A DNA stretch of 64,000 bases from the NCBI GenBank assembly GCA_951812825.1, contig OX638324.1, positions 2,395,141 to 2,459,140 on the forward strand. The letters run 5' to 3'. Position numbers and translations under genes: made by a program. Under the pieces are notes generated by a model. The model saw nothing but the letters and a program-made list of their open reading frames with translations. It ran no database searches and was not told the DNA's origin. This document shows, piece by piece, positions 8,215-39,177 of the stretch (position 1 is the first letter of the stretch; each line of letters starts with the position of its first letter). This DNA comes from an uncultured Dehalococcoidia bacterium (GTDB lineage: Bacteria > Chloroflexota > Dehalococcoidia > Lucifugimonadales > GCA-2712585).

Positions 8215-9225
8215 GTGAAGCTAGGCAAGTTGACCCCAGACACTCTGGAGGCCCTGTTAAGCCGCGTTCCGGTTTCAGACCCGCGGGTTATCCTCGGGCC
8301 CAAAGTGGGGGAGGACGCCGCGCTGCTGGACTTCGGCGACGAGGTCCTGGTGGCCAAGACGGACCCTATAACCTTCGCTACGGACCTTATTGGCTGGTAC
8401 GCCGTGCACGTCAACGCCAACGACGTGGCCTGCGCCGGAGCAAAGCCCCGATGGTTCATGGCCACCCTGCTGCTTCCCCAGCGGATGAACGAAGAGAGCG
8501 TATCTGAGATATTCCGACAGATTACGGACGCCTGCGACTCTCTGGACGTGACACTGGTGGGCGGGCACACGGAGGTGACGCAATATCTGGACCAGCCCAT
8601 CATCGTCGGATGCATGTTGGGAGTTGCGCCCAGGGACCGGGCGTTGACCACCGGCGACGCCCGGGTTGGCGATTATGTCATCCTGACGAAGGGCATATCC
8701 CTGGAAGGTTCCGCCCTGCTGGCCCGGGAACAGGCGGAAGTCCTCCTGAAGGGCGGCATGAACCCATCCCTCATTGAGGAAGCGGCTGGACTGCTGTTCA
8801 ACCCCGGCATCAGCGTAGTCAGCGACGCTCGCATCGCCTGCGACGCCGCTAACGTCCACAGTCTTCACGATCCAACGGAAGGGGGGCTGGCCACGGCGCT
8901 TCAGGAAGTTGCCGCTGCGGCAGGCGTTGGGATGGTGGTTGACAGGGAGAACATTCCCTTCCTTCCCCATTGCGTGGAGATATGTAAAATCCTGAGGCTG
9001 GACCCCCTGGGCCTTCTGGCCTCCGGCTCCCTGATTATCACGTTGCCGCCGGAAGAAGCTCCCCAACTGCTTTCCGCCCTGGAACGGGAAGGCATCGATG
9101 CCCGGCACATCGGCCGCGTCACACCACCGGAAAGAGGAATCATGCTGCGCAGGGCAGAAAAACTCTTGCCCATGCCTACTTTCGAGCGGGACGAACTGGC
9201 CCGCTATTTCGAAGAGTCCGAGTAG
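8215..9225 (+). CDS. AIR-synthase-family protein, HypE-like
   Basis: Member of the PurM/HypE/ThiL/SelD superfamily, ATP-binding enzymes that activate substrates by phosphorylation. The N-terminal VGEDAALLDFGDEVLVAKTD and the HVNANDVACAGAKPRWF motif are those of the ATP/Mg site, followed by GGHTEV and the C-terminal half HDPTEGGLATALQEVA. It is 336 aa, as in HypE-like proteins, but lacks the HypE C-terminal PRIC cysteine motif, and no hyp or hydrogenase genes are nearby, so its substrate is unknown. The GTG at 8215 has GGAGGA upstream. Control by the palindrome at 8153-8184 is plausible. Confidence 0.8.
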   Translation: MKLGKLTPDTLEALLSRVPVSDPRVILGPKVGEDAALLDFGDEVLVAKTDPITFATDLIGWYAVHVNANDVACAGAKPRWFMATLLLPQRMNEESVSEIFRQITDACDSLDVTLVGGHTEVTQYLDQPIIVGCMLGVAPRDRALTTGDARVGDYVILTKGISLEGSALLAREQAEVLLKGGMNPSLIEEAAGLLFNPGISVVSDARIACDAANVHSLHDPTEGGLATALQEVAAAAGVGMVVDRENIPFLPHCVEICKILRLDPLGLLASGSLIITLPPEEAPQLLSALEREGIDARHIGRVTPPERGIMLRRAEKLLPMPTFERDELARYFEESE

Positions 9226-35769: not shown

Positions 35770-35829
35770 TTGATAAATTCGTACGTTTGCCCCTATAATC
35801 AATGTAATTTCGATGATAGGAATGAAATT
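35770..35829 (+). promoter_or_regulatory. Promoter and operator-like dyad of the Fur-family gene
   Basis: TTGATA (35770-35775), 18-base spacer, TATAAT (35794-35799). Just downstream AATTTC (35806-35811) and GAAATT (35824-35829) form an inverted repeat around the expected transcription start. It could be an autoregulatory site for the metalloregulator. Confidence 0.7.
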
Positions 35830-35835
35830 CTGTCA

Positions 35836-36294
35836 ATGGCTAACGTAAAGTCTGAGCCGGCCCCGCGCCCATCACCAGCTGAGCTGCTGGCCATATTGGA
35901 AGACCACGGATATCGTCCTACAAACCAACGCCGGGACGTCGTAAGCCTCTTGGAGTCCAAGGAGGTCGGCTTCACCGTTGAGGAGTTGACGGAAGAGTTG
36001 ATTGAGGTTGGCCGGGCGACGGTCTACCGTACCGTCAAGCTGCTACTCGACGCTGGCGTGCTGTGCAAGGTGACCCTCGCCGACGGTACTCCCAAGTACA
36101 TTGTCGCGCGGCGGGAACACCACCACCACACCGTCTGCGTCCGTTGCGACACGGTGGGGGAGTTCCGAAGCAGCACCGTCGAGCGCGTCTTGAGGACTAT
36201 CGGGGCAGATATCCCCGGCACGATTGTGGGACACCGGATGGAGATCTTCCTGATATGCGAAAGCTGCTCGGATACCATCAACTACTTCCGGTAG
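35836..36294 (+). CDS. Fur-family metal-responsive transcriptional regulator
   Basis: 152 aa. Winged-helix DNA-binding half (residues about 13-80; YRPTNQRRDVVSLLES and GRATVYRTVKLLLDAGVL) followed by the dimerisation half with REHHHHTVCVRCDTVGEF and ICESCSDTINYF, giving two CxxC pairs for structural zinc and a His-rich sensory site. Fur, Zur and PerR cannot be told apart from this. The ATG at 35836 follows the promoter at the right distance; an upstream extension of the frame lies in the promoter and is not translated. Confidence 0.92.
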   Translation: MANVKSEPAPRPSPAELLAILEDHGYRPTNQRRDVVSLLESKEVGFTVEELTEELIEVGRATVYRTVKLLLDAGVLCKVTLADGTPKYIVARREHHHHTVCVRCDTVGEFRSSTVERVLRTIGADIPGTIVGHRMEIFLICESCSDTINYFR

Positions 36295-36395
36295 TCGCAG
36301 CCGGTTAATCCTCCAGCCGCGTCACCTGGTCATGGGCCGATGCCCAAGCCTGTTTGTGCCTGAAGCTTCCGTTCACGGTTGAGTATTGTGATTCC

Positions 36396-37256
36396 TCAAG
36401 CACCCGCGACGGCCCGGCAGTGGTCCAACACCGACGCTGACTTGGCGGGCATGTCCGTCAGAATCTGAAAGCCCTGCTCCAAACGGCGTTCCACGTCCTC
36501 CTTAGTCCTCACGCCGGTGGCGCAAGGCACGCCGTATTCCTGGCAGACCTTCAACGTCCGCAGCACCATCTCCTGCACGTCCGGGTCCTCGGTGGCGTTG
36601 CCGCCCAACCCCATGTCCACGGACAGATCGCCCGCTCCTGCCATTATCGCGCCGATGCCCTTCACGTTCTTTAGAATGTCCGGCAGGTTCCTCGCGCCCT
36701 GTACCGTCTCGATTATGCCAATCAGAAGCATTTCCCCGTCGGGGTCCAGGGGCCACAGGTCGGACATGTCCGTATACTCCTCCACCGTTATGCCCCAATA
36801 TCTGACCGCCACATCGTGAGGATGCCAGCCTCGCTCTCCCTTGGGAAGCATGTCCGGCGCTCCCTGGCGCTGGGGATACCGGGACGCTACCACCGCCGCC
36901 TCAGCCGCCTCCACCGAGTCCAGAACGGGAATGACGATGCCGTAGGCCCCCAGGTCCAGGGTGTGCTTGATAATCCACTGGTTCTGCTCCCTGGCGTTGG
37001 GTGTCATGCGAACGAAGGGCGTCGGGTGGGCCTGAAGGCTGCCGCTATCCGCAATTCGCCTCCTGTTCAGCAGGGCTTGCAGCGAAAGCCGGAGGGTGGG
37101 AAAGTCCAGCCCCGTATGCTCGTTATCAATGAAAACGTAGTCGTAACCCGCATCCGTGGCGAAGGCCAGGTCGTCCAGATTTCCGTTGTTGGCCCACGTG
37201 CCGACGGCGGGTTTGCCCCTTTCCAGCAGGTCGATAACCCTGTTCAGTCGCGCCAT
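36396..37256 (-). CDS. HpcH/HpaI-family aldolase (4-hydroxy-2-oxovalerate/2-oxo-acid aldolase type)
   Basis: 286-aa class II aldolase of the citrate-lyase/HpcH family, which splits 2-keto-3-deoxy or hydroxy-oxo acids into pyruvate and an aldehyde. Features are YDYVFIDNEHTGLDFPTLR (metal and phosphate site), GAYGIVIPVLDSVEAAEAAV, and IGIIETVQGARNLPDIL with the metal-binding Glu. The start at ATG 37256 has GGGAGGA 6 bases upstream; a longer frame reads into the repeat unit at 37343 and is not real. Likely part of aromatic or sugar-acid breakdown. Confidence 0.85.
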   Translation of the reverse strand: MARLNRVIDLLERGKPAVGTWANNGNLDDLAFATDAGYDYVFIDNEHTGLDFPTLRLSLQALLNRRRIADSGSLQAHPTPFVRMTPNAREQNQWIIKHTLDLGAYGIVIPVLDSVEAAEAAVVASRYPQRQGAPDMLPKGERGWHPHDVAVRYWGITVEEYTDMSDLWPLDPDGEMLLIGIIETVQGARNLPDILKNVKGIGAIMAGAGDLSVDMGLGGNATEDPDVQEMVLRTLKVCQEYGVPCATGVRTKEDVERRLEQGFQILTDMPAKSASVLDHCRAVAGA

Positions 37257-37342
37257 TTTCGTCCTCCCGTTCCGTACTGCTTGAGGATAATATCGGAAAC
37301 CCGCCGCCCATTGCAAAAAGTGGGGTGAAGTATACTCCTTCT

Positions 37343-37389
37343 CCACATGTCATTCTGAGGAGGCCCCACGACGAAGAATCTCGATGTGG
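37343..37389 (+). repeat. Palindrome-ended dispersed repeat
   Basis: CCACAT (37343-37348) and ATGTGG (37384-37389) are inverted ends. Between them is TTCTGAGGAGGCCCC plus ACGACGAAGAATCTC, nearly identical to 22791-22820. Located between the aldolase and VOC genes. Confidence 0.7.
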
Positions 37390-37463
37390 GCACAGTGGTT
37401 TGACCCTCCCGCAGCGGGATCCTATACTGCAACCACTCCACAACAATGAGCAAGGAGGCTGTT

Positions 37464-37874
37464 ATGGGCACGGGCGCACGGCTGCAGCACGCGGCATTCC
37501 ATACCACGGACCTGGATAAGGCGCGGGACTTCTACGGCAGGATTCTCGGCCTGGAGGAGATAGTCCGGGCCAACGTTATGAGCGCCGGCATCTGGTACAG
37601 CGCCGGGCCGGAGCACGAGCTCCACATTACCCTCAGCGACTCAGATGGCGTCCCCCAAAAGGGACGCGACATCAACCCTCGCAAGCGGGGGGTGGAAGGC
37701 AGACACCTGGCCTTCGCCGTCGATAATCTCGAAGAGACCAAGCGTCTGCTGGACGAAGAAGGCCTCCCCTACGTGGGCAGCAACGACGACCTGCCCCAGA
37801 TTTTCGTAGAAGACTTCGACGGTAACCTGGTGGAGCTGAACTCGGGCTGGGCCAGGCAGCAGCCCGCGGGCTGA
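37464..37874 (+). CDS. VOC-superfamily (glyoxalase-like) protein
   Basis: 136-aa vicinal-oxygen-chelate domain. LQHAAFHTTDLDKARDFYGR and IFVEDFDGNLVELNS carry the typical first metal His and last Glu of a glyoxalase/dioxygenase fold, and RHLAFAVDNLEETKRLL the second beta-alpha module. ATG at 37464 is chosen because AAGGAGG lies about 5 bases upstream. The sequence before the repeat copy at 37888 was probably once directly joined to the OsmC gene. Confidence 0.85.
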   Translation: MGTGARLQHAAFHTTDLDKARDFYGRILGLEEIVRANVMSAGIWYSAGPEHELHITLSDSDGVPQKGRDINPRKRGVEGRHLAFAVDNLEETKRLLDEEGLPYVGSNDDLPQIFVEDFDGNLVELNSGWARQQPAG

Positions 37875-37887
37875 CACTAACCCCCGC

Positions 37888-37921
37888 GCCAATTCCCAAA
37901 TCCGGTTGGCAAGCAAAGGAG
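37888..37921 (+). repeat. Direct repeat, left copy, flanking the lipoprotein gene
   Basis: 34 bases (core AAATCCGGTTGGCAAGCAAA at 37898-37917) repeated at 38621-38653. The shared part includes the AAAGGAG ribosome site, so each copy supplies the ribosome site for the gene after it. Confidence 0.8.
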
Positions 37922-37925
37922 AACT

Positions 37926-38546
37926 ATGGAAGTAGGAGGACTGTTTCAGGCGTTGATTCTAGTAACCGGCCTTTTCATTATTGTGGCATGCAATTCGAGT
38001 GTTGATTCAGAAGAACAATCAACAGAACAACCCAGTGCTCTAACGACGACGGTAGACGAGGCAATCTACGCGGTTGAATTACAACCATTTAGCCATTTCG
38101 AGGAAGCGGTCATGCCCATTGTGGATGAGTTACAGCAACCACGCGGCCTATTAAATGGTCAACTTCAAAACGACAAAGGTGACTTCTGCTGGTACACTCA
38201 ATTAGCGACTACAGAGGATTCGAGGTCGTATTTCTATGAGACATTAACTGGATCAGATACACTCATGGTATTCGATAAAGGTTGTATGACTGCAGCCACT
38301 CCTATCGGGATGAGCTTTTTTCAAAGAACGGTTAACGAAATTATCGGACGATGGTATTCCAAGCCTGATGCAGCCTTCCAAACGAAGCCAATTGATCTCT
38401 ATCCATCAAGTCAGTTTCAAGAGAATGGATGGTGCATGCAGTCCGCAACCTATCCGACTCAGGCTGTTGCTATTGAATATTTTGGCGATGCTGATGTCTT
38501 AGCCGCAGTGGTACACAACATAACAATCGGCGGCTGTACCCAATAG
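37926..38546 (+). CDS. Lipoprotein of unknown function, AT-rich inserted gene
   Basis: 206 aa, signal peptide and lipobox (FIIVAC, Cys22), then a soluble domain with four cysteines in Trp/Cys settings (KGDFCWYTQLA, VFDKGCMTAATP, ENGWCMQSATY, IGGCTQ), which may form two disulfides. I do not recognise a family. Codon use is clearly AT-richer than in genes on both sides. It lies exactly between two copies of a direct repeat (37888-37921 and 38621-38653), which points to a transferred single-gene insertion. Its ribosome site is in the left repeat copy. Confidence 0.8.
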   Translation: MEVGGLFQALILVTGLFIIVACNSSVDSEEQSTEQPSALTTTVDEAIYAVELQPFSHFEEAVMPIVDELQQPRGLLNGQLQNDKGDFCWYTQLATTEDSRSYFYETLTGSDTLMVFDKGCMTAATPIGMSFFQRTVNEIIGRWYSKPDAAFQTKPIDLYPSSQFQENGWCMQSATYPTQAVAIEYFGDADVLAAVVHNITIGGCTQ

Positions 38547-38620
38547 AGGCTCAATTTTTCCATTGAGGCGTTAGGCACAGCTAAAGGCACAAGTTAGTTA
38601 CATATCTGTCCAACATAGAC

Positions 38621-38653
38621 GCCAATTTCAAATCCGGTTGGCAAGCAAAGGAG
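38621..38653 (+). repeat. Direct repeat, right copy, carrying the OsmC ribosome site
   Basis: 33 bases, same core as 37888-37921, differing only by T/C and one length change near the 5' end. Includes AAAGGAG before the OsmC start. Confidence 0.8.
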
Positions 38654-38658
38654 CAGCG

Positions 38659-39177
38659 ATGGTCATCAAAGACCCGAAGGAGCACGTTGAGTACGACCCT
38701 ATGGTCGGCGTCCGGGGGCCGGTGCGCCTCGCCTCCGTGGAGGCAACGGCGGAGGTTGTGGAGGACCAGCTAAAGCGCGGCAACTGCGGCCGGTGGGAGA
38801 TTATCTGCGACGAACCGGACAGCCTCGGCGGCCTGGACGTGGCGCCTGCGCCCCTCCACTACTTCGCCATGGCCGTCCTCTTCTGAGAGATGACCCAGAT
38901 TGCGCGGTACGCGCAGTTCAAGAAGGTGGAAATCTCCAACGTCAAGGGATACATCAAGCTGAACCTGACCATGACCGGCTCCGTCCTGGCCGAGACCATC
39001 GACGCCAGCGCCTCCAGCGTGGAGACCAACTTCGTGGTGGAGTCCGACGCAGACCCGGATACCATCCGGTCCATCCTTCGCAACGCCCGACGGGGCTGCT
39101 GGGCCCGTCAGATGATCGCCAAGCCCATTCCCTTCAAGGACACCCTAACCCTTAACGGCGAGAGTTTCGAGTTCTGA
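38659..39177 (+). CDS. OsmC-family protein with in-frame TGA at the redox-Cys position (predicted selenoprotein)
   Basis: 172 aa if TGA at 38884-38886 is read as selenocysteine (residue 76). The first half (residues 1-75, ending APLHYFAMAVLF) and second half (EMTQIARYAQFKKVEISNVK onward, with second redox Cys147 in NARRGCWARQM) are in the same frame and together match OsmC/YhfA hydroperoxide reductases. The TGA sits where OsmC proteins have their peroxidatic Cys. A SECIS-like hairpin follows (38898-38918). The start ATG has AAAGGAG 5 bases upstream. Function: reduction of organic peroxides, or related thiol redox chemistry. selA, selB, selC and selD are not in this window. Otherwise it would be a nonsense-split pseudogene, which I think is less likely. 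Confidence 0.85.
38898..38918 (+). promoter_or_regulatory. Bacterial SECIS-like stem-loop downstream of the in-frame TGA
   Basis: TGCGCG (38901-38906) and CGCGCA (38910-38915) form a perfect 6-bp upper stem with apical loop GTA; A-T and G-T pairs extend it down to 38898/38918. The GU in the loop is 20 bases after the TGA, in the range expected for SelB recognition. It is inside the reading frame. Confidence 0.75.

Follow-up and report, generated by a model that had tools for sequence, protein, structure and literature searches.

An in-frame UGA at codon 76 of an OsmC-like gene in a Dehalococcoidia genome is predicted, on computational evidence, to be read as selenocysteine (Sec), and we put the probability of this reading at about 0.96. 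The gene lies in the window, i.e., the whole stretch of 64,000 nucleotides that was analyzed. Sec insertion is very well supported by the Sec machinery of the genome, by the recurrence of the TGA in relatives, by a covarying hairpin, by the lack of this hairpin in the homologue L064 and by frozen synonymous sites. The original prediction had proposed that the UGA encodes Sec in an OsmC-family redox protein, and it passed each of its proposed tests that was run, namely those on the sel genes, on the relatives and on the hairpin.

If the TGA is translated as a residue, positions 38659-39174 encode a single protein of 172 residues with U at residue 76 (Table 1). The open reading frame contains only this one internal TGA and is open elsewhere, and the true stop follows 97 codons past UGA 76. 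The ribosome-binding site is good, and AGGAG-like sites are also found 5' of the start codon in the related loci L022 and L023. The reading frame, the TGA and the stem with the GTA loop had all been located and described correctly beforehand. It had also been claimed that the two in-frame halves form one OsmC-type protein, which is borne out by the Pfam OsmC match (PF02566; residues 60-160, E 5e-10, whole chain with Cys placed at position 76) running across the TGA. A scan of the window for TGA-interrupted reading frames with a strict filter (strong stem with G in the loop, third codon positions rich in G+C and long open stretches on both sides) returned the OsmC gene as the sole match.

Table 1. 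Features of the predicted OsmC-like selenoprotein gene (positions within the window).
Feature	Position	Strand	Basis
Shine-Dalgarno-like AAAGGAG	38647..38653	+	Seen in sequence, 5 bases 5' of ATG
OsmC-like selenoprotein gene (predicted)	38659..39177	+	Translation with TGA as U, Pfam OsmC, NCBIfam NF041052, AlphaFold2 model with OsmC fold
In-frame TGA (U76), opening the UxxT motif U-E-M-T	38884..38886	+	TGA in 42 of 43 close homologues; aligns with the CxxT Cys of 3cje
Bacterial-type SECIS hairpin (predicted)	Arms 38898-38906 and 38910-38918, apical loop GTA 38907-38909	+	Covariation, arm-swap control, frozen synonymous sites
TGC codon, second redox Cys (Cys147)	39097..39099	+	Invariant in 21 aligned rows; aligns with the second Cys of 3cje
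Terminal stop TGA	39175-39177	+	Translation

The protein matches the NCBIfam model NF041052 (OsmC_like_Se) with 150.1 bits compared to a cut-off of 95 (E 3.7e-44), as do all 21 aligned homologues. U76, C147, D51, E52, G57, P63, G107, A143, N166 and G167 are invariant in these 21 sequences. The motif reads U76-E-M-T79 and its last position is occupied by T in 17 and by S in four of the 21. An AlphaFold2 model built from the 21 sequences reached a pLDDT of 86, and all top Foldseek and VIA matches were OsmC/Ohr-type structures; the model bears on the fold and not on the activity. The closest solved relative by sequence is PDB 3cje (E 1e-21), in which the Cys of a CxxT motif aligns with U76 and a second Cys with C147. 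The TGA is thus found where OsmC proteins have their redox Cys, as had been suggested, since in solved OsmC-like proteins the reactive Cys is aligned with U76, and the second Cys, Cys147, is intact as claimed and was retained in every homologue aligned.

A single change from TGC to TGA, or a sequencing error, in an ordinary Cys-containing OsmC gene would yield such a picture in one genome, and the TGA would then be a true stop in a pseudogene or an artifact. However, a TGA was observed at the residue-76 position in 42 of the 43 close family members examined, and the 41 other loci (two from named metagenome-assembled genomes and 39 from sampled Chloroflexota genomes) stem from independent genomes across the phylum. 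The protein is conserved on both sides of the codon and the downstream hairpin covaries. This independent recurrence together with an intact downstream protein rules out a pseudogene or a sequencing error, which we consider extremely improbable. The orthologues in the two public Chloroflexota/Dehalococcoidia metagenome-assembled genomes share 83 and 73% identity with the window protein and both carry the TGA. In a sample of 393 genomes of the class, exactly one TGA is present in each of the 20 top-scoring matches, which come from 19 genomes, whereas the weaker matches (E > 1e-9) are almost all without TGA and belong to other OsmC groups. Across 400 genomes of the phylum, NF041052 was matched above its cut-off in 27, of which 26 have one TGA and one, G649, has none. 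The relatives thus show TGA and once Cys at residue 76 and no other stop codon, in agreement with the Sec reading. In Chloroflexota, this OsmC branch would be almost exclusively a selenoenzyme.

The exception, L064 in G649, has TGC (Cys) at the Sec position and is the only such close homologue; its downstream stem comprises just 2 bp. In the tree (support 81/46), Cys could have arisen from Sec or Sec from Cys. L064 and the TGA-containing homologues form a natural Sec/Cys exchange pair.

The machinery for Sec insertion was found in full. The genome is a single contig of 2.47 Mb with an estimated completeness of ~96%, and the presence of the sel genes, on which the original prediction depended, was established for all four: selA (453 bits in the profile match), a full-length selB (349.7 bits, cut-off 242), selD (375 bits) and selC, the tRNA-Sec, with the anticodon TCA (75.7 bits, gathering score 47). 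Furthermore, SelB scored above its curated cut-off in 19 of the 19 TGA-bearing genomes of the class compared to 254 of 393 overall, these being raw counts that ignore relatedness. This bears on a further explanation, namely that the UGA codon specifies something other than Sec, either due to a reassigned code or because a near-cognate tRNA inserts Trp, Cys or Arg. Readthrough of any kind would keep the frame. However, TGA is the ordinary stop codon of neighboring genes in the window and of the OsmC-like gene itself, which rules out a reassigned UGA; the full Sec pathway is encoded, selB is found in all 19 TGA carriers and the hairpin is conserved. Moreover, Cys is the sole replacement seen in a close homologue, matching the expectation for Sec. 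Decoding as an amino acid other than Sec therefore appears very unlikely.

The selD gene (L018, genome positions 1058509-1059423) contains an in-frame TGA of its own in the active-site region (CAGUASK), which makes SelD another predicted selenoprotein encoded here. In the one sequence examined, the bases 3' of this TGA fold into a stem whose short loop contains G. The tRNA-Sec gene is located directly downstream of a gene for a thioredoxin-like protein of 120 amino acids (L004 1684-2046, minus strand; region L004 1497-2046). Within the window, positions 8227-8985 gave a weak match to the selD profile (82.8 bits, under the cut-off) and probably encode another member of the AIR synthase/ThiL/HypE superfamily.

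The stem with a GTA loop that had been noticed after the TGA is present, and across the family it behaves like a bacterial SECIS element. In the window it comprises nine pairs including G-U pairs, spans bases 12 to 32 after the TGA and leaves 20 bases between the UGA and the loop. Its folding energy of -11.8 kcal/mol compares with a mean of -3.7 in synonymous codon resamplings (P 0.011), and a stem as long as this one was obtained in just 2% of the protein-preserving resamplings. For individual homologues the corresponding P values range from < 0.001 up to 0.4, and the covariation across the family is therefore the stronger evidence. Stems of 5 bp or more were found at the same place in 97% of 37 distinct sequences but in only 21% if the arms were swapped between sequences. 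The mean stem length of these 37 sequences, with small register shifts allowed, was 6.6 bp compared to 3.3 bp for swapped arms, and none of 2000 permutations was as high.

Covariation was assessed in 28 homologues that share the same register, using a seven-pair helix. In this set 91.8% of the cells are paired, and 36 cells are changed on both sides compared to a mean of 8.9 after shuffling. The covariation score was 0.608 compared to 0.201 for shuffled data, with none of 500 shuffles as high, and it falls to 0.04-0.12 once one arm is slid by one to three columns. Moreover, synonymous sites are frozen in this region: comparing the three closest orthologues at residues that are unchanged, nine of ten codons are identical within codons 77-88, whereas elsewhere this is the case for 36 of 100 (Fisher P 0.0013). 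The paired and covarying stem together with the frozen synonymous sites shows that the RNA is under selection for structure, at the usual site of bacterial SECIS elements. That the hairpin is merely forced by the protein sequence is ruled out by the codon resampling and, more strongly, by the family covariation.

Computation supports the fold, the conserved U/C pair, a full set of Sec genes, and selection on both the SECIS element and a Sec-specific codon; from these we infer how Sec might be inserted in vivo and how a redox cycle, with its substrate and reductant, might look. SelB with Sec-tRNA (anticodon UCA) would bind the hairpin just 3' of UGA 76 and selenocysteine would be placed there, allowing the ribosome to pass the codon and to run on to the true stop. 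In the predicted fold, the central helix would carry Sec76, and Cys147 would lie close to one end of a different helix. By analogy with Ohr/OsmC, the selenolate might attack an oxidized substrate, probably a peroxide or a similar electrophile, a selenenylsulfide might form between Sec76 and Cys147, and a cellular thiol donor might reset the enzyme. A redox enzyme using the U76/C147 pair is likely.

The original prediction went further and described a Se-peroxidase with a peroxidatic residue. Both terms are tentative: U76 aligns with the reactive Cys, but the Ohr catalytic Glu is not conserved. In Xylella Ohr, Arg19 and Glu51 act with the reactive Cys61, and the Glu precedes the Cys by 10 residues (PMC5962072). 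The equivalent position 66, assigned as 10 residues before U76 assuming the gapless alignment seen with 1vla, is occupied by Leu in 15 and by Met in six of the 21 homologues. No conserved Arg was seen in the Gly-rich loop, where OsmC has its catalytic Arg, in the 21 homologues; their N-termini align poorly, and this part of the model has a low pLDDT. Because of the Leu/Met at the Glu position, an Ohr-like peroxidase mechanism should not be assumed; the chemistry around the selenolate would differ from that in Ohr, so that a substrate cannot be named. Based on the analogy, the odds that the enzyme is a peroxidase or acts on a peroxide-like substrate are about even.

The selenoprotein might instead belong to a YhfA-like branch that reduces or transfers another substrate, a possibility that we rate slightly below an even chance. 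It is favored by the Leu/Met in place of the Glu, with D51 and E52 of the Gly-rich loop being invariant instead, by the activity of YhfA-type members being stated as unknown (PMC5962072), and by the conserved neighbors in close relatives, an HpcH/HpaI aldolase and a glyoxalase-family protein, neither of which is a known oxidative-stress gene. However, 3cje is titled OsmC-like hydroperoxide resistance protein, albeit by name only, and Ohr and OsmC, the characterized enzymes with the same fold, are thiol peroxidases (PMC5962072). That the Chloroflexota selenoenzyme without the Ohr Glu is a Se-dependent reductase of a non-peroxide substrate, catalyzing a reaction foreign to the Cys-based OsmC/Ohr proteins, seems rather unlikely.

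For the gene neighborhood, L022 retains the order HpcH/HpaI aldolase, glyoxalase-family gene and OsmC, the last two being 60 bases apart, and L023 retains the aldolase and OsmC. In the gene neighbors compared, no recurrent neighbor family was found among the more distant members, and function is therefore not given by context. Upstream of the OsmC gene, window positions 35776-37874 encode a FUR-family regulator, the HpcH/HpaI aldolase and the glyoxalase-family protein. The corresponding aldolase gene of L022 and L023 has as neighbors a gene for an ABC ATPase and one for a metal transporter permease of the ABC-3 type, the latter tested against Pfam in L022 only. Window positions 37900-38640 are richer in A+T, with a G+C content of 0.43-0.49 compared to about 0.61 on either side, and an open reading frame of 206 amino acids (37926-38546) without a Pfam family is located there between the glyoxalase-family and the OsmC gene. 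Since the two flanking genes are only 60 bases apart in L022, this stretch looks inserted.

Three metagenomic sequences from the Sargasso Sea gave the first description of OsmC-like selenoproteins carrying a UxxT motif (Zhang et al., 2005; PMC1088965), the GOS study of 2008 listed five metagenomic sequences (PMC2398784), and reviews of 2022 and 2026 give one example each (PMC9312934, PMC13188914). As the family was described in 2005 and a curated model exists, the window protein does not represent a new protein type. In the literature searched, mainly open-access papers, no description of the breadth in Chloroflexota or of the SECIS covariation of an OsmC-like selenoprotein was seen, no measured activity of the family was found, and NF041052 was found nowhere mentioned by name. 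Gene callers that treat TGA as a stop would split the gene in two, so that this redox protein, although conserved, may go unnoticed or be wrongly annotated in many Chloroflexota genomes.

Compared with Xylella Ohr and E. coli OsmC, the hydroperoxide reductases, the fold is shared (VIA Z 10-13) and the Cys pair corresponds to U76/C147. However, the Glu position is Leu/Met, sequence identity amounts to 9-18% and the catalytic Arg was not identified among the invariant residues. The OsmC-like protein of Jannaschia (PDB 3cje) has CxxT at the U76 position and shares the second Cys, with Cys there replaced by Sec here. From NF041052, the 'OsmC-related (seleno)protein', no difference was found and the window protein belongs to this family. 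With the 2005 Sargasso family, likened by its published motif and description, it shares the OsmC-like assignment (COG1765, PF02566), Sec in UxxT and, 3' of the UGA, a SECIS-like hairpin whose apical loop contains G. The finding is therefore a well-supported addition to the known OsmC-like selenoprotein family, of which a few marine sequences had been reported. Over the published accounts found, it adds how widely the family occurs within Chloroflexota and the support of the SECIS element by covariation. In contrast to the 2005 and 2008 sets, the protein is encoded here in a genome with the full Sec machinery, with 42 Chloroflexota loci and a covarying SECIS element, and such a covariation-backed element in a nearly Sec-only lineage provides a clean case for what selenium gives an OsmC protein.
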